Positions 45,145 through 53,793 of a DNA stretch of 64,000 nt are shown here, one piece after another (within the stretch, counting starts at the first letter, position 1; every line of letters begins with the position of its first letter). The notes under the pieces are model-generated. The model saw only the letters and a program-made list of their open reading frames with translations, searched no databases and was not told where the DNA came from. The stretch is taken from assembly GCF_017745095.1 (NCBI RefSeq), contig NZ_JAGHZZ010000001.1:372001-436000 (forward strand). The letters run 5' to 3'. The DNA comes from Sporocytophaga sp. GTDB taxonomy: Bacteria > Bacteroidota > Bacteroidia > Cytophagales > Cytophagaceae. The translations under genes were made by a program, and so were the position numbers.

Positions 45145-45768
45145 TTATTTCAGGTCGTCGCTAAAGTCTTTTTTTACTTTATTGATTTTGGGTAAAGAAA
45201 CATTCTTTATATAGGCTTCGTCAGGATGATGCTGCACATAATTCTGATGGTAAGGTTCAGCTTTATAGAACTTAATCAATGGGGCAATTTGTGTGACAAT
45301 TTTTTGATGATATTTTGTCTTATTAAGGTATTTGATTTTCTCTTCTGCCTGTTTTTTCTGTGAAAGATTTGAATAAAAAATTTCAGAACGGTACTGAGGC
45401 CCAATGTCAGGTCCCTGATGGTTAAGCTCTGTGGGGTCATGGGCAGTAAAAAAGATATTGAGCAATTTGTCGTAAGAGATTATTGCAGGATCATAATAAA
45501 CTTGTACAGATTCAGCATGTCCTGTTTTTCCGGTTTCGATTTTTTCATAAGTGGCATCGGACTTATTACCTCCACAATATCCTGAAACTACATCTTGTAC
45601 ACCATTGATCTGTTCGAATGCCGCTTCCGTTGCCCAAAAGCAGCCTCCAGCAAAAGTAGCGGTATCCGTTTTTGCTTCATCTATATGTTTAGTATAGTTT
45701 AAATTGCTGTATCTGGCGAAGTTTAATAAGGTTATGATTGTAATAGATGTATATATCGTTGTTTTCAT
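45145..45768 (-). CDS. msrA: Exported peptide methionine sulfoxide reductase A
   Basis: A 207-residue protein. FAGGCFWATEAAFE has the catalytic Cys43, and GHAESVQVYYDP, HDPTELNHQGPDIGPQYRSEIFY are MsrA hallmarks. The N-terminus (about 1-22) is hydrophobic, unlike cytoplasmic MsrA, suggesting export and repair of oxidised methionine in the envelope. It lies 37 bases downstream of the TonB receptor gene on the same strand. Confidence 0.93.
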   Translation of the reverse strand: MKTTIYTSITIITLLNFARYSNLNYTKHIDEAKTDTATFAGGCFWATEAAFEQINGVQDVVSGYCGGNKSDATYEKIETGKTGHAESVQVYYDPAIISYDKLLNIFFTAHDPTELNHQGPDIGPQYRSEIFYSNLSQKKQAEEKIKYLNKTKYHQKIVTQIAPLIKFYKAEPYHQNYVQHHPDEAYIKNVSLPKINKVKKDFSDDLK

Positions 45769-45805: not shown

Positions 45806-48463
45806 TTATAAACCAAACTTATAATCTAATCTGAATGAAAAGAAGGAGTAATCCACACTATAAAGGTCTGTTTGCTCTTTGATGTCTGCACTTTGTTGCC
45901 AGCGCAGGGTTTGTAGTTTGTTGACCCAGGCAAGGAGATCATAACCATAGAATGCTATGAGTATATTTTTCCCAGGACGAATATTTAGCCCTACATCCCA
46001 TTTAACCATCAGATGGTTTTCAATTCCCAGAAAGGGAAATTTATTGTTGAATGCATAATTCTTTGCATAGTCATTCAGATTTGGATTGTTGACTTTAGTC
46101 GTATCATATTGATGGATGTCTTTCCTTCCTGTAAGCCCCCAGAATAATCTGAAATCGGTATGAATGCTTATCCAAGAAGCTGGTTTATAATTCAGGTAAA
46201 GCTTAGTAATATTAGTGTTCAGATTAAGAAAATTTTTCCCATCTACTGTTATTTGGTCTCTAACAGCATTAATAGCGTTTGACATTACTGAATCAGTTCC
46301 CGGATGTGCTTTGCTTTCTATTGGTTTGGGAAAGTATTGATATGATTTTCCATCTGTTGTGACAGAGTCAAAACCGTTGAATACTGCTAAATCAAAATAT
46401 TTATACTGATCCATTACATCGGTTCTGACAACCCTGGAATAAACATGGTTGGCTCCTATTGAAATCGTATTTGTTTTAAATGCAAAGTCCAGCTCAAGAT
46501 TAACAAAATGATAATATCCTGCATTTACAATCCTGAATAATTTTTGATTCCAGAGAAGAAGGTCCTTGACAGTATTATAAGATATTGAAGGTTTAATATT
46601 GATTTTGTCATCTCCTATTGTATTCATGGAAGTTATTTCAAAGGAACTGGAACGTTCTGGTTTTAGCTTATGCAGTTCTTTTAAAGTTACGGGAGGTATG
46701 ACCGATGTACCAGGCCCCGGACGCATAAAAGGCGTCTCATAATGATATGTTGTATAAGGCTCACCGTTATCGTTGAAGCTGTTCCTGTCAAACTCGTAAT
46801 TATCCGCACTTCCGTTATTAGCGGAAGTCTGATAAATAACTTTTATTACATTTTGTTCATCAGGTTTTAAAATAATGGCAGCTTTGGGTGTCAATACGCC
46901 TCCAATAAAAGCGGTTCTCGTATGGATGTCGTACCTCAGACCTGCAAGTACATCGACCTTTTCAGTAAGGTTATATTTAGCTTCTGAAAAAACTGCATTG
47001 TTAACGTAAACAACATTTGACACAACAGGATGACTTTTTATTTCGTAACGACTGTTTCTGCCAGACATGTCCCTTCCTATATCAAATAATCGAAACTCAT
47101 ATCCGCTAGCCCATTGTAACCGGGGAACATTTTTCATGAGATAAAGCCCTCCGAGGCTGTACCTTCTCTCGCCAAAAGTCTCAAGAATTGATACGTGTCT
47201 TTCTGAAGGCGAAAGTGTTGTATATCCTTTGAGTTCTTCCAGTTGTATTCTGTCCGTATTTAGGTCAAGGCCCCCATAGAGTGTAACTATATTGTCATGT
47301 TTCGTTGGGATAGTGTATGTAAGCTGGTTAGTTATGTTGTTTACTACGTATTGTCTCCTGTTTACATTTCCAGGCTCAATATTCCCATACCAACCATTTA
47401 TATTTTCAAATTTTCCATCAACAATTCTATCAGGAGCAAGTGAGTCCATTCCTGTAAAATCAGCCCATGGATCAACGATAAAGAAGCCGGAAGCATTCGT
47501 AACCTGATGTGTATAGCGGCTGTATAGTCGAAATCTTTTATAGTTAAAATCAACACTGAACCTTGCGTTACCTGGCGTAGACCAAGGGCTTCCGGAAACT
47601 GGTACTCCATCAGGAGGAGGGTTGTCCAGGAATTGAGGATAGGGGAAACTGGGCCTTCCGTATAGTCGTGCTCTTTCTTGTCCGACTCCATCACTCACTC
47701 TGTATCCTCCGGAGAGCACTATTGATGCATCCTTTTTGCCTAATAAAGATTTTCCTAACCAAGCCTCGTATTGATGAAAATAAGTATCGCCGCTCCATGT
47801 CCCCTGAGTTGTGGACGCAATAAATTCATCCCTCTTGTATTTTTTGGTTACCATATTTATGATCCCGGATATTGCCCCTGAACCATAAATAAGACCTGAA
47901 GGTCCTCTGATCACTTCCACACGTTCAACATCGCCAAGCAGGCCTAAATCTGTTTCCATATTGGCGCCATCTCTCGCTTCTGTATTCATTTTTCTTCCAT
48001 TTATAAGGAATATGAATTTTGAATTTCTGTCTGCTGCCACACCTCTCATCCCCCATATTATTCCGTACCATTTACTATACATATACTGAAAGCCCGGAAC
48101 ATATATTTCGAGTAATTCACTAAGATGTCTGGCTCCTGAAAGTTCTATTTCCTCCCTGGATATTATGGAAAGACTAAATGCAGAATTTCTCATATCAAGT
48201 TCAAGAAAGGAGCCTGATGCTACCTTTGTATCCATCAATTCGTCAAGTGAGAGATTCCATAGATTTTTATTTTTATTGTTGGTATCAGCATTAAATACCG
48301 GGTCGCGTTTTTTTGAATTTAGGTTTTGGTCTGCGGATTCCTTTTCTGTCGAAGACTGCAAAGTGTCTTTTGATGAAGGTTTCTGAGCAATTAAATCTGA
48401 TGTCGGAGTAAAAAGCAGTATTAAGACAAATTTTATAAGACAAAACAGATTCTTTGTTGCCAT
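45806..48463 (-). CDS. TonB-dependent outer-membrane receptor
   Basis: An 885-residue protein. A signal peptide (cleavage near LIAQ) precedes a charged linker and a segment LSLDELMDTKVASGS, common in this receptor group. The plug domain follows (LSIISREEIELSGARHLSELL, VERVEVIRGPSGLIYGSGAISGIINM), then a long 22-strand-type barrel ending in an aromatic-rich terminus (YSFFSFRLDYKFGL). There is no N-terminal carboxypeptidase-like repeat as in SusC. The ligand is unknown. It is divergent from the YfiR/CHASE8 kinase pair, with about 208 bases between. Confidence 0.93.
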   Translation of the reverse strand: MATKNLFCLIKFVLILLFTPTSDLIAQKPSSKDTLQSSTEKESADQNLNSKKRDPVFNADTNNKNKNLWNLSLDELMDTKVASGSFLELDMRNSAFSLSIISREEIELSGARHLSELLEIYVPGFQYMYSKWYGIIWGMRGVAADRNSKFIFLINGRKMNTEARDGANMETDLGLLGDVERVEVIRGPSGLIYGSGAISGIINMVTKKYKRDEFIASTTQGTWSGDTYFHQYEAWLGKSLLGKKDASIVLSGGYRVSDGVGQERARLYGRPSFPYPQFLDNPPPDGVPVSGSPWSTPGNARFSVDFNYKRFRLYSRYTHQVTNASGFFIVDPWADFTGMDSLAPDRIVDGKFENINGWYGNIEPGNVNRRQYVVNNITNQLTYTIPTKHDNIVTLYGGLDLNTDRIQLEELKGYTTLSPSERHVSILETFGERRYSLGGLYLMKNVPRLQWASGYEFRLFDIGRDMSGRNSRYEIKSHPVVSNVVYVNNAVFSEAKYNLTEKVDVLAGLRYDIHTRTAFIGGVLTPKAAIILKPDEQNVIKVIYQTSANNGSADNYEFDRNSFNDNGEPYTTYHYETPFMRPGPGTSVIPPVTLKELHKLKPERSSSFEITSMNTIGDDKINIKPSISYNTVKDLLLWNQKLFRIVNAGYYHFVNLELDFAFKTNTISIGANHVYSRVVRTDVMDQYKYFDLAVFNGFDSVTTDGKSYQYFPKPIESKAHPGTDSVMSNAINAVRDQITVDGKNFLNLNTNITKLYLNYKPASWISIHTDFRLFWGLTGRKDIHQYDTTKVNNPNLNDYAKNYAFNNKFPFLGIENHLMVKWDVGLNIRPGKNILIAFYGYDLLAWVNKLQTLRWQQSADIKEQTDLYSVDYSFFSFRLDYKFGL

Positions 48464-48671
48464 TGAAGGTCAAATTATAATGGAGCTTAACTCAGTTGAT
48501 ATGAATTTGTTATGTCTTGGAAAGTGATAGTTAAGTGCAAAGTAAGGAATGATAAAGTAATGCAAAACATTAACATTGAAAGCCTGTTTAACCCTGAAGT
48601 TCAGATAGGTGAGTTTGTATATTATGGTATATATACATGACGGAAAGTTTTTAACCGGGAATCAATATTAA

Positions 48672-49304
48672 ATGATAAACGACCAATCATCTCATAGTTG
48701 TGAAATGCCAGCAGATGAAAAAGGGACTTCGAGATTTTTAATGATTCAGTTGGTGCTGGTGGTGTTCTGTTGCTCGGGGTTTATTATAGATGTTCACCAT
48801 GAAAGATTGATGAAAAGTTGTAGTGAAGTTTATGATATAGTTCAAGAAGGTGAGTACTCTTTAAAGGCGGCATTTATATATCGTTTTACTGAGTATGTAG
48901 ACTGGGAGGGAATGCCAAAGGAAGAGGAATTTAAAATAGCAATTCTGGGAGATACTCCTTTAACCAGGAATCTTATTAATATAGCTGAAAATGCGGAAGT
49001 AGGTAATAGAAAGATTAATGTAGAAGAGTATGACAACCTGAATGAAATAGATGAGTGTCAGATATTGTTTGTCTCGAGGGAGAGTTCAGTTCCCTTGCAA
49101 GCAATATTACATAAATTCGAAGGAAAGGAAACTCTTATTGTTACGGAAAAGGAAGGTTATGGAGAAAAGGGATCATGTATAAATTTTTTTCTTTCGGAAA
49201 GTAAAATCAAGTTTGAAGTAAATCTTGAGGCGGTTGAAAAAGCGGGACTAGCAGTAAGTTCACAATTATTACAGCATGCTGTTGTGATAGGTAAGCAAAG
49301 GTAA
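48672..49304 (+). CDS. YfiR-family periplasmic protein
   Basis: A 210-residue protein. A membrane/signal helix at about 25-42 precedes the YfiR (DUF4154) domain, which begins EYSLKAAFIYRFTEYVDW and includes FKIAILGDTPL, ECQILFVSRESS, and the final LAVSSQLLQHAVVIG. In Pseudomonas, YfiR is a periplasmic repressor of the CHASE8 diguanylate cyclase YfiN. Here it lies six bases before a CHASE8 hybrid kinase, its likely partner. The first ~50 residues (with DEKGTSRF before the helix) are longer than in the usual signal peptide; a later start cannot be excluded. Confidence 0.88.
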   Translation: MINDQSSHSCEMPADEKGTSRFLMIQLVLVVFCCSGFIIDVHHERLMKSCSEVYDIVQEGEYSLKAAFIYRFTEYVDWEGMPKEEEFKIAILGDTPLTRNLINIAENAEVGNRKINVEEYDNLNEIDECQILFVSRESSVPLQAILHKFEGKETLIVTEKEGYGEKGSCINFFLSESKIKFEVNLEAVEKAGLAVSSQLLQHAVVIGKQR

Positions 49305-49310
49305 AAAGAT

Positions 49311-52300
49311 ATGGCTTTTCATTTGCCAAAAATTAGAGATTTATCCATAAGAAACAAGCTGATTTTTCTTCAGTTTTTTACTTGTCTTATTGTACTTGCT
49401 CTTTGCTGCGCAGCTTTTGTTTTTGTTGATGTCAGAGAGTATAAAGAAAATAAAGTAAATAGCCTCACCTCAATGGCACAGTTAATAGCTTCAAGCAGCA
49501 TTTCTGCCCTTGAGTTTATTGACAATGAAGCAGCCAATTCTATTCTTTCAGATTTAATAGTAGTTGATGATGTGTCAAATGCACAGATCCTTGATAAAGA
49601 CAATCAGGTGTTCGCCTCATATTCCAAAAGAGGTGTGAAGAATTATAACTTTACTCCTGTAGATAAGTCATCTGTAGAATTTGAAAGAGGGTATCTGTAT
49701 ATCTATCATGAAATTATTAATAATAATGGAGAGAGGGTAGGGATGGTATTTATCAGAGCTGAATTAAATCAGCTAAATTCAGTAATAAATAGGAAAATTC
49801 AGATTGCAGCATTTTTAATGGGAATCGGAATGTTGCTGGCATATCTTATAGCTTTATTTTTACAAAAGTATATTTCGTCTCCACTTCTAAGATTAGTTTC
49901 AGTGATGGATAAAGTAAGTAAGGAAGGGAGCTATGGTAACCATGCCCAGGTTGAAGGTAAAGATGAAATAGGTACTTTGTCCCTTGTTTTTAACGAAATG
50001 CTCATCCAGATTGAGAAGAGGGATAAGGAGCTTTTGGAGAATAATTACCTTTTAAATTCAATCCTTAATAGCATGGGAGATGGGGTATTGGTAGTAGACA
50101 ATGACCTTAACTTTATGCTATGGAATCCAGCATTTGAAAAAAAGCATGGAGGACTACTAGTGGCTCATCCTAGAGTAGCTCTTGGTAAAAATTATAATAT
50201 GTTCTTGCCTGGTGAAACCATACCTCTTGATTATGAGAATTCTCCATTTTATAAAGCAGTGCAGGGTGAAGAGTTTAATAACCAGGAATTGCTGTTAAAG
50301 ACTGATGATAATTTAATAACATATATCAGTATAACAGGAAGACCTTTAAAAGACAGAAGTAATGTAGTCATTGGTGCAGTTGCAGTTGTTAGAGATATTA
50401 CACAGCGTAAGCAAATACAGCTTGATCTAGATACAGCACGGCAGCAGTTGCAGGATATGATGGATTATTCTTCCGCTTGTATTTTCGCCAAAGATTTAAA
50501 AGGTAGATATATATTCGTCAATAAGAACTTTGAACAGGTATATAAGGTCGAAAGGGAAAAGGTAATAGGAAATACAGATTTTGAATTTCTTTCCAGAGAA
50601 GAGGCATTGCCCCTGTATGAGCATGACCAGGAAGTTTATAGGGTGGGGCACGATGTCTCTTTTGAAGAAGTACTTTTAAGGGAAGGAAACCTTCAAACTT
50701 TTATATCTGTAAAGTATCCGCTAAAAGATAATGATGGAAAAATTTACGGACTATGCGGGATAGCTACAGACATTACGGAACGGAAGGCTATAGAGGAGGC
50801 AGATAAAATGCGGGTGACACAGATGATAAAGTTTCAAGAGACGCTCTTGAATCTTACGAGCATGGAAATAGACCTTCCTTTAGATGAAAAGCTTAAAGCC
50901 ATCCTTGTTAAATGCGCTGAAGTTATAGATGTTGAAAGGTGCGGTATATGGTTTTTTACTAAAGATAAAAAAGAGATTTTTCCAAAGATTATTTATCGTA
51001 AAAGTGAGAATGATACTGTAAGTGGAAAGCCAATTAAAAAATCTCCAAATTCTATTTATTTCAAAGCTTTAGAGAATTTTCACACTATAGATGCTCATGA
51101 CGCCCTTTCTGATCCCAGAACTGCTGAACTTGCAGAGATATATTTTAAGCCGTTGGGTATTGCCTCTACCCTTGATGTTGCCATAAGACTGGGAGGTAAG
51201 ATATCAGGAATGTTATGTTTTGAACATATAGGTGATAAAAGAAATTGGTCTTATGAGGTTCAGGTCTTTTCTTCTTCAATAGCCGGAATTGTAGCCTTAG
51301 CTCTAGAAAACTTTGAAAGGCTAAAAGCGGAAAAAGAACTGCATGAACTGAACGATGAATTAGCTCAGGCAAAAAATGCTGCAGAGCAATCTAATGCGGC
51401 TAAGGATGTTTTTCTTGCTAGTATGAGCCACGAAATCAGAACTCCTTTAAATGCAATAATTGGTTTTCAGCAATTGCTCAAAGAAACGGACCTTAGTGAT
51501 GAGCAAAAGGAAATAGTAACCTCTATAGATTTTGCCGGCCGTAACCTATTGGTAATTATTAATGATATTCTTGATCTTTCAAAAATAGAAGCAGGAAAAG
51601 TTGAGTTTATTGAAAGTGAAATCAATGTTGCTTCAATTATCCAATCTGTAATTGAATTGTTTGAACAGAAAGTAAAGGAGAAAAATCTTAAGATAACGTT
51701 TTATCATGACCCTACAATTCCCTCCGGATTACTAGGAGACGGAGCTCGCTTAAGTCAGATTTTACTTAACCTGATTGGCAATGCAGTAAAGTTTACAGAA
51801 AGGGGAGAGATAAAGATTATAACGCATTTATTGGATGTAAAAGAAGATTATTTCAATTGTTTGTTTGAAGTGGAAGATAGTGGAATTGGGATTCCAAAAG
51901 AAAAGCTTGCCAGGATATTTGAACGCTTTACTCAGGCAGAAGCCGATACAACAAGGAGATATGGCGGAACAGGGCTCGGCCTAACTATTTCTCGTCACCT
52001 GATAGAGCTTCAAGGAGGATCTCTTATGGTAAAAAGTGAACCTGGAAAAGGCTCTGTGTTTTCTTTCAAATTGAAATTCAAAAAATCTGCTGATTCCAAT
52101 GGCGTCAGTATCGCAACTCCGGAAGGTGGAATGAAGAATATGCCTAAGGAAGCAAAACCCCTGAAAATATTACTGGCTGAAGATACAGTTTTAAATCAAA
52201 ATTTAATCTTAAAGGTTTTCCAGAAAACCAAACATTCCGTGGATATTGCCAATAATGGGGTTGAAGCTGTTGAGAAAGTAAAGCGTAATAGTTATGATAT

Positions 52301-52925
52301 CATTTTGATGGATGTTCAAATGCCATTAATGGACGGCTGTCAGGCTACTGAAGAAATAAGAAGGCTAAAAGATAGGGTTAAGAGGAAAGTTCCTATTGTA
52401 GCGCTTACAGCTTTTGTTTCTAAATCTGAAGAGGAAAGGTATCGGAGAAAAGGTATGGATGCATATATTACTAAGCCATTTGATAAAGAAGATTTATTGC
52501 AAACGATTTACAGGCTTACTGATTCTGATAATATTGATATAAATTCAAAATCATTTATGGATACAGGTTCAAATTTATTCAGTTTAAGCTTTCTGGAAGA
52601 AACCTCAGAAGGAGATACAGAATTTATCATTAAAATGGTAAACCTCATACTTGAAGAAGCGCCCGATAGACTCAGAAGTCTAAAAGAAGCTATCCAGGCC
52701 AAAGATTATGCAGCTATTAAAACTAATGCCCATAAGCTAAAGAACATAATTATTCCTGTTCAGATGGAAAGAGCTAAAGAGTTAGCAACTGCTATAGAGG
52801 AAAATAGTCGCAATGCCGGTAATATGCAGATTATCGTATCTCATTTTGCTGAGTTGAGTGAAATAATAAATAGTGTTTTAGAGCCTCTGCGTAACCAGGT
52901 AGAGGTGTTGAAGCATAATTCATGA
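49311..52925 (+). CDS. CHASE8-HAMP-PAS-GAF hybrid histidine kinase with receiver and HPt
   Basis: A 1204-residue phosphorelay protein. Two helices (about 18-38 and 163-185) flank a CHASE8 periplasmic domain (MAQLIASSSISALEFIDNEAA). HAMP (about 186-240), two PAS units (about 245-365 and 375-495), and a GAF domain (about 525-675) follow. The HisKA box has H707 (ASMSHEIRTPLNAIIGF), then HATPase (GIGIPKEKL, GGTGLGLTISRHL), a receiver with D1001 (IILMDVQMPLMDG) and an HPt domain with H1141 (NAHKLKNI). All relay residues are present. It is the probable target of the adjacent YfiR protein; no output protein is encoded nearby. Confidence 0.92.
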   Translation: MAFHLPKIRDLSIRNKLIFLQFFTCLIVLALCCAAFVFVDVREYKENKVNSLTSMAQLIASSSISALEFIDNEAANSILSDLIVVDDVSNAQILDKDNQVFASYSKRGVKNYNFTPVDKSSVEFERGYLYIYHEIINNNGERVGMVFIRAELNQLNSVINRKIQIAAFLMGIGMLLAYLIALFLQKYISSPLLRLVSVMDKVSKEGSYGNHAQVEGKDEIGTLSLVFNEMLIQIEKRDKELLENNYLLNSILNSMGDGVLVVDNDLNFMLWNPAFEKKHGGLLVAHPRVALGKNYNMFLPGETIPLDYENSPFYKAVQGEEFNNQELLLKTDDNLITYISITGRPLKDRSNVVIGAVAVVRDITQRKQIQLDLDTARQQLQDMMDYSSACIFAKDLKGRYIFVNKNFEQVYKVEREKVIGNTDFEFLSREEALPLYEHDQEVYRVGHDVSFEEVLLREGNLQTFISVKYPLKDNDGKIYGLCGIATDITERKAIEEADKMRVTQMIKFQETLLNLTSMEIDLPLDEKLKAILVKCAEVIDVERCGIWFFTKDKKEIFPKIIYRKSENDTVSGKPIKKSPNSIYFKALENFHTIDAHDALSDPRTAELAEIYFKPLGIASTLDVAIRLGGKISGMLCFEHIGDKRNWSYEVQVFSSSIAGIVALALENFERLKAEKELHELNDELAQAKNAAEQSNAAKDVFLASMSHEIRTPLNAIIGFQQLLKETDLSDEQKEIVTSIDFAGRNLLVIINDILDLSKIEAGKVEFIESEINVASIIQSVIELFEQKVKEKNLKITFYHDPTIPSGLLGDGARLSQILLNLIGNAVKFTERGEIKIITHLLDVKEDYFNCLFEVEDSGIGIPKEKLARIFERFTQAEADTTRRYGGTGLGLTISRHLIELQGGSLMVKSEPGKGSVFSFKLKFKKSADSNGVSIATPEGGMKNMPKEAKPLKILLAEDTVLNQNLILKVFQKTKHSVDIANNGVEAVEKVKRNSYDIILMDVQMPLMDGCQATEEIRRLKDRVKRKVPIVALTAFVSKSEEERYRRKGMDAYITKPFDKEDLLQTIYRLTDSDNIDINSKSFMDTGSNLFSLSFLEETSEGDTEFIIKMVNLILEEAPDRLRSLKEAIQAKDYAAIKTNAHKLKNIIIPVQMERAKELATAIEENSRNAGNMQIIVSHFAELSEIINSVLEPLRNQVEVLKHNS

Positions 52926-53019: not shown

Positions 53020-53397
53020 ATGTCACAGTTTAAAAGGAAACTAAACAATTTTGCAGTATTCTCACTTGCTATTCTTTTTGCGGAACTCATTCAGGCAGTT
53101 GCGCATAATTATATTGACCATTGGAAAGATGGTCATGGCAAATATGTTTCTGTACTTCTTTCAATGATTCTTGCAATAGCGGTATTTTATCCCGTATTTC
53201 ATTTTCTGGATAAATATATCCAGTCGGCATCCAAAAACTATATCAAGAGTTCGAAGAAAGTAAGTGGTGGAGGAACTTCAGGGCTATTGCTTGGTTATTC
53301 TCTGGCAATGTTTTTTATGTTTATAGCATTTGCCCAACTTTGGTATCATAAAGATGTCATTGCAGATTTGGGTCATTGGCTTAAAGGGTTTATTTAA
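53020..53397 (+). CDS. Small membrane protein with three helices, unknown function
   Basis: A 125-residue protein with membrane helices at about 12-30, 42-62 and 90-112 and a basic loop with IKSSKKVSGGG between the second and third. No family is recognised. It lies nine bases before the DUF6941-like gene, so the two are probably co-transcribed. Confidence 0.6.
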   Translation: MSQFKRKLNNFAVFSLAILFAELIQAVAHNYIDHWKDGHGKYVSVLLSMILAIAVFYPVFHFLDKYIQSASKNYIKSSKKVSGGGTSGLLLGYSLAMFFMFIAFAQLWYHKDVIADLGHWLKGFI

Positions 53398-53406
53398 AAG
53401 AATATT

Positions 53407-53793
53407 ATGGAAATAGAAATTTTTACCCTTTGCGATCACGCACAGGATTTTAATGGTAAGTTAGTAATAGTTGGAACCTTTGATAGTATAAGTTCTGCTA
53501 CATATCCATTTACGCACGCTGCTTGTTCTTTGGCCGGGAGGTTAAGGTTTAGTGAAAAAGAATCCGGTGTTCATGACTTTAAAATAAAACTGATCGATGA
53601 TGAAGGGTTTGAATTATATCCTGCTATTGAAGGGAATATTGATGTATCTAAAAGCGTAGCGAATTATTCAACAATAAACTTTGCTATAAATCTTGGAAAT
53701 CTGGAATTTAAAAAAGCAGGGAGGTATGCTATTGAGCTATACATTGATAACGAATGGCAGAAAGGTCTTCCGATAAATGTCATCAAGCAGTAG
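53407..53793 (+). CDS. DUF6941-like protein
   Basis: A 128-residue beta-rich protein starting IFTLCDHAQDFNGKLVIVGTFDSI, with FTHAACSLAGRLRF and a closing GRYAIELYIDNEWQKGLPINV. This layout matches the small DUF6941 family of unknown function. No signal peptide. It follows the small membrane protein gene by nine bases and faces the convergent hisN gene across a hairpin. Confidence 0.7.
   Translation: MEIEIFTLCDHAQDFNGKLVIVGTFDSISSATYPFTHAACSLAGRLRFSEKESGVHDFKIKLIDDEGFELYPAIEGNIDVSKSVANYSTINFAINLGNLEFKKAGRYAIELYIDNEWQKGLPINVIKQ

Follow-up and report, generated by a model that had tools for sequence, protein, structure and literature searches.

A conserved TonB receptor, YfiR and CHASE8 hybrid-kinase block in Sporocytophaga, a divergent representative of a known kind of modular signalling

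Among the closest described relatives of the system reported here are YfiBNR of Pseudomonas aeruginosa, HmsCDE of Yersinia and YfiR-DgcN-YfiB of Escherichia coli, with which it has in common the YfiR fold, a CHASE8-HAMP partner encoded next door and phenylalanine residues at the interface. The YfiR-YfiN contact was mapped genetically to AAVVF (F70) of YfiN and to F162 and adjoining residues of YfiR, and YfiR-YfiN was called modular in the same work, with GGDEF-EAL, HPT and sensor-kinase or hybrid-kinase outputs, for example in Thauera MZ1T (Malone 2012, PMC3375315). A single YfiR surface serves both YfiN and the outer-membrane partner YfiB (PMC4655355). In addition, NCBIfam holds a trio of families, NF053590 (TOL_0244 TonB receptor), NF053591 (TOL_0243 YfiR-like) and NF053592 (HK_near_YfiR_like), in which the same three components as ours are neighbours. 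We analysed a stretch of 64,000 nucleotides from Sporocytophaga sp. (NZ_JAGHZZ010000001.1, positions 372,001-436,000), hereafter the window, whose own positions are used as coordinates below and which contains a TonB-dependent receptor gene divergent from the genes of a YfiR-like protein and of a CHASE8 hybrid histidine kinase. The block is real and conserved, and it belongs, as a divergent member, to a modular kind of signalling system that is already known. We give about even weight to the reading that it is a three-part trans-envelope sensor, in which the state of the receptor would control YfiR and YfiR would gate the kinase.

The receptor, YfiR and kinase genes of the window

The block is made up of the following genes and domains.

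45145-45768, minus strand: MsrA (peptide methionine-S-sulfoxide reductase), 37 bp behind the TonB receptor (PMSR, 9e-60)
45806-48463, minus strand: TonB-dependent receptor, 885 residues, divergent from YfiR (Pfam Plug, 5e-15)
47861-48193, minus strand: plug domain of the receptor, residues 91-201 (Pfam Plug)
48464-48671, no strand: divergent intergenic region of 208 bp between receptor and YfiR, with conserved blocks in an alignment of four Sporocytophaga-group genomes
48672-49304, plus strand: YfiR-like periplasmic protein, 210 residues (DUF4154, 3e-39)
49311-52925, plus strand: hybrid histidine kinase, 1204 residues, with transmembrane helix (TM) 1, CHASE8, TM2, HAMP, PAS, PAS_4, GAF, HisKA, HATPase_c, receiver (REC) and histidine phosphotransfer (HPt) domains (Pfam)
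49449-49754, plus strand: CHASE8 periplasmic sensor domain, residues 47-148 (Pfam, 1.6e-12)
51402-51596, plus strand: HisKA with phospho-acceptor H707 (codon 51429-51431)
52167-52508, plus strand: receiver domain with D1001 (codon 52311-52313)
52635-52871, plus strand: HPt domain with H1141 (codon 52731-52733; Hpt, 1.4e-6)

The open reading frames of the receptor, YfiR, the kinase and MsrA were all found intact, and a spacer of six bases (49305-49310) leads from YfiR to the kinase. YfiR belongs to the DUF4154 family (134.8 bits against a Pfam cut-off of 24.9); it matched the YfiR of the PDB at 1e-9 in a profile comparison, and its fold was confirmed by Foldseek to 4yn7/4xjy (TMt 0.68-0.78). 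In the receptor, a short motif, LSLDELMDTKVASGS, stands shortly ahead of the plug domain, and motifs resembling it, read by eye, occur near the N-terminus of many receptors of such modules. Each of the kinase residues H707, D1001 and H1141 stands in the motif expected for it (SHEIRTP, MDVQMP and AHKLKN, respectively), while the CHASE8 domain is predicted from its model to adopt a PAS-like fold (CitA, TMt about 0.65-0.74). The first-pass annotation had proposed that a phosphorelay through these three residues replaces a diguanylate cyclase as the output of CHASE8. Domains and residues bear this out, and the host genome (99.97% complete) contains zero GGDEF matches at E <= 1e-5, so that the window module apparently cannot end in cyclic-di-GMP. 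As an idea, output replacement is already known, kinase and hybrid-kinase outputs being described in Malone 2012.

Gene order is the same in three other Sporocytophaga-group genomes (L039-L041) for the entire block, MsrA and the two small genes that follow the kinase included, and within the genus purifying selection acts on the four core genes (dN 0.045-0.13, dS 0.5-1.3). The lack of a conserved neighbourhood in relatives had been named in the first-pass annotation as the result that would speak against it; the neighbourhood was found to be conserved, and the TonB-receptor association holds within the genus and well outside it. In a Sporocytophaga metagenome-assembled genome (L040/L105) the kinase is broken near codon 303, where a frameshift or an assembly error is possible. 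The two small genes (window 53020-53793) encode a 125-residue membrane protein and a DUF6941 protein, with 92-98% identity across the genus, exceeding the conservation of the module itself. A second YfiR of the host genome (L026, G000:C18:61653-62069) is followed by a 4HB_MCP-HAMP-GAF protein of 551 residues, in which no output was recognised, and by a TonB receptor, a gene order also present in L078 and L096.

Association of the three components and exchange of outputs

A survey of DUF4154 and CHASE8 matches in 296 genomes of the phylum placed 19 of the 36 CHASE8 matches 137-211 bp downstream of a DUF4154 match on the same strand, and per genome the two families co-occurred (21 genomes common to sets of 27 and 32; Fisher p = 4e-19). 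The YfiR-CHASE8 pair is thus a recurrent unit. We then considered the neighbourhoods of 136 YfiR genes, picked by YfiR alone, 51 of which have a CHASE8-type sensor as the next gene. A TonB receptor lies at most two genes upstream in 35 of these 51 pairs, compared with 18 of 466 control genes (p = 9e-29, which is approximate, since the sample holds near-identical pairs: L012/L038, L126/L128 and three genus members). The receptor association, for which the first-pass annotation had called for a co-occurrence survey, was therefore upheld.

The trio is present in Bacteroidota, several Pseudomonadota, Acidobacteriota, Calditrichota, Thermodesulfobacteriota and Verrucomicrobiota, as well as on plasmids of Sphingobium, Pseudoalteromonas and Caballeronia. 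The YfiR-CHASE8 pair with no receptor detected extends to Planctomycetota, Nitrospirota, Myxococcota and Ignavibacteriota, making about ten phyla in all. An overlap of 4 bp between the YfiR gene and the sensor gene is seen in many loci. That these genes are neighbours by chance, with no common function, is hardly credible in view of the co-occurrence statistics, the fusions described below, the purifying selection and the conserved gene order. The closest YfiR outside the genus (51% identity) is that of Flavobacterium gawalongense (L106), where the open reading frame of the adjoining CHASE8 protein stops after the PAS domains; this suggests either transfer between families or a truncated kinase.

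Of 44 sensor-like proteins scanned just downstream of YfiR, 43 have CHASE8, and their outputs vary: HisKA in 31, GGDEF in 10, EAL in 9, and a class III cyclase and an MCP in one each. The latter two are an Ignavibacteria protein with a terminal class III nucleotide cyclase (L114:6497-7960) and a protein with a terminal chemoreceptor signalling domain (L131:6456-8492). Kinase versions can still end in cyclic-di-GMP, since a gene for a REC protein that carries GGDEF or EAL comes within three genes after the kinase in Gallionella, Marinobacter, a methylococcacean and an acidobacterium. A natural exchange was found between two Gallionellales loci (L122 and L126), whose receptors are 82% and YfiRs 80% identical, while their sensor regions are only 41% identical and the output is GGDEF-EAL in L122 and a histidine kinase in L126. 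Placed on the YfiR tree, the GGDEF output requires some six changes, and well-supported branches make two or more of these unavoidable. Taken together, the Gallionellales swap and the tree indicate that receptor and YfiR stay paired while the output changes.

These observations bear on a different explanation, in which the receptor and MsrA would be regulated by the kinase and not serve as its inputs, their adjacency being the product of co-regulation. The divergent receptor of this genus, which forms its own unit with MsrA, would agree with it, as would the absence of a receptor near some YfiR-CHASE8 pairs. However, receptor, YfiR and sensor are colinear in most other lineages, including loci with GGDEF-EAL output, and the Gallionellales receptor remains with YfiR when the output is replaced. 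We regard this explanation as quite improbable.

Proposed mechanism and its alternatives

From the genes, their domains, conservation and co-occurrence, the interface residues and the lack of a GGDEF match, we infer contacts between YfiR and CHASE8 in this organism and between receptor and YfiR, together with a ligand, a direction of control and a downstream regulator. The block would work as YfiB-YfiR-YfiN with two exchanges, a TonB receptor for the lipoprotein YfiB and a phosphorelay for the diguanylate cyclase. Docked on the CHASE8 domain, periplasmic YfiR would hold the inner-membrane protein in one state; the state of the receptor (ligand bound, TonB engaged) would alter the availability or the shape of YfiR; the CHASE8-HAMP unit would then switch the kinase, with phosphate passing from H707 to D1001, to H1141 and on to a response regulator.

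Natural fusions may bear on the geometry of such an arrangement. In ten loci (L032, L034, L035, L037, L077, L079, L080, L081, L082 and L083) YfiR is fused through a helical stalk and a TM helix to an output, which is HisKA/HATPase in six; two of the other four were scanned and have a SpoIIE phosphatase (L080, L083). The stalks comprise 125-222 residues with few Pro and Gly, and most would measure 19-25 nm as a single helix; for L037, AlphaFold2 gives one unbroken helix that starts at residue 175 and runs on through the stalk and the TM. With a periplasm some 20-25 nm across, YfiR in the fused forms probably sits near the outer membrane. A TonB receptor gene is located immediately upstream in five of the ten fusion loci.

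YfiR might instead read a ligand: the receptor would merely supply a compound by importing it, and YfiR would bind it and present it to CHASE8. This suits the operon structure and the translational coupling. In Thalassolituus, TOL_0244 is up sevenfold on the long-chain alkane n-C28 and was proposed to detect and import alkane; it resembles Alcanivorax OmpS, described as an alkane-detecting receptor (PMC6304351). The YfiR model also resembles, at TMt about 0.5, a Rhodothermus 'substrate-binding protein'. Against these points, Pseudomonas YfiR acts through protein-protein contact (PMC3375315), and fusion stalks of about periplasm length are better fitted by contact with an outer-membrane protein than by ligand capture. 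A ligand-reading YfiR appears to us unlikely, if worth keeping in mind.

With regard to the interface, Pseudomonas F162 is retained in the window YfiR as F181, and the corresponding position is Phe or Leu in every linked YfiR. The kinase residue F69 (codon 49515-49517) corresponds to the YfiN phenylalanine proposed to bind YfiR and is present in 51 of 51 YfiR-linked sensors.

Several results weigh against the three-part sensor. F69 also occurs in 17 of 20 CHASE8 proteins from a set that had at first been counted as unlinked to YfiR, four of which actually have a divergent YfiR adjoining. As a marker of YfiR-linked CHASE8 it is weak, being invariant in linked sensors yet largely a feature of CHASE8. 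The window YfiR has His at the L183 position. When YfiR and the sensor were modelled with AlphaFold2, joined as an in-frame read-through as a modelling device, the domains were confident with no confident relative arrangement (pTM 0.52). In the receptor Pfam found Plug alone and no STN domain, and the barrel is far from the TOL_0244 model. Moreover, no plug-type receptor was recognised near 16 of the 51 YfiR-CHASE8 pairs, and therefore the receptor is not obligatory; another large gene takes its place in L012-L014 and L038, and the one scanned (L012) encodes a TonB-type barrel with a carboxypeptidase-like N-domain. Finally, we found no experiment on any TonB-receptor-linked YfiR.

The first-pass annotation had also described the receptor and an exported MsrA as facing the YfiR-kinase pair, and had suggested that the block may sense the redox state of the outer membrane or envelope. 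The gene arrangement was confirmed. MsrA is assigned by TIGR00401 (177 bits, cut-off 108), and a signal peptide, and with it export, is no more than plausible, as the N-terminus shows only weak hydrophobicity (a Kyte-Doolittle mean of 0.85 in the best 19-residue stretch). Adjacency of Msr as a general feature of the module was dropped, since among the loci examined it was seen in this genus and in isolated cases; MsrA is a genus-level companion and not a core part of the module. In the redox explanation, the block would read periplasmic redox through the disulphides of YfiR, with MsrA as a repair arm. HmsC and YfiR are indeed known redox sensors, sensing in HmsC depending on C87-C126, equivalent to C71-C110 of YfiR (PMC5550408); MsrA adjoins the receptor in four of four genus members; and in a Kapaibacterium locus an MsrA-MsrB fusion gene (L016:10392-11339) is divergent from YfiR-kinase, with no TonB receptor between. 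In the window YfiR, however, A90 replaces C71 with C129 (C110) retained, and G164 and N171 replace C145 and C152. This mapping leaves neither Cys71-Cys110 nor Cys145-Cys152 and rules out redox sensing through the known disulphides; the remaining C129 and C169 are no known pair, and Msr neighbours are otherwise rare in the examined loci. Redox sensing is unsupported, and we consider it very improbable. Across linked YfiRs the C71-C110 pair occurs in about half and C145-C152 almost never, so that the two disulphides of Pseudomonas and Yersinia YfiR are traits of a subfamily.

More generally, and with some reserve, we propose that TonB receptor and YfiR may constitute a general cassette from outer to inner membrane with at least five outputs (histidine kinase, GGDEF/EAL, class III cyclase, chemoreceptor and SpoIIE phosphatase), the fused form crossing the periplasm on a helical stalk of about 20 nm. 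It would be a second, STN-independent route of TonB-receptor signalling. If the receptor is the input, STN-less TonB receptors would gain a widespread, uncharacterised route to the cytoplasm with interchangeable outputs, and the presence of YfiR in a bacterium without recognisable cyclic-di-GMP synthesis would be accounted for. The question is testable in compact operons, such as those of Sphingobium or Pseudoalteromonas.

Comparison with described systems

FecA-type transducing TonB receptors have an STN domain and a FecR/sigma partner, whereas here Pfam found no STN and the neighbours scanned include no FecR-like gene. OmpS and TOL_0244 are TonB receptors of the module family, but the barrel of the window receptor is unmatched beyond the plug region, and PMC6304351 makes no mention of YfiR. 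We found no description of the TonB receptor-YfiR link in the open literature, and subscription papers could hold one. Unlike YfiBNR, HmsCDE and YfiR-DgcN-YfiB, the window has a TonB receptor, a phosphorelay in place of a GGDEF output and none of the redox disulphides; the nine proteins scanned in the block and its flanks include no OmpA-like gene that could stand for YfiB, an OmpA/Pal-like lipoprotein. The YfiR-YfiN variants of Malone 2012 share the kinase-type output replacement, and the main text of that paper mentions neither TonB nor Bacteroid*.

The NCBIfam trio has the same composition, yet the window proteins score below all three cut-offs. The best NCBIfam match of the receptor is NF053590, at 77 bits far below the cut-off of 645; YfiR narrowly misses NF053591 (123.3 bits, cut-off 125), and the sensor region of the kinase reaches 165.6 bits with NF053592 (cut-off 194). 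In the window the receptor gene is divergent instead of colinear, and the kinase adds PAS, GAF, REC and HPt. All three cut-offs are exceeded by the proteins of a relative within the Bacteroidota (L011), and those for receptor and YfiR by the Sphingobium proteins. Compared with these systems, what is new, as far as we found, is the receptor link over six phyla and the YfiR-CHASE8 pair over about ten, the GGDEF-free host genome, the Gallionellales output swap, the nucleotide-cyclase and chemoreceptor outputs, and the fusion of YfiR to kinases or SpoIIE phosphatases via a helical stalk roughly as long as the periplasm is wide. Of these points, the receptor association across phyla, the fusions with a stalk and the evidence for the swap are the strongest.

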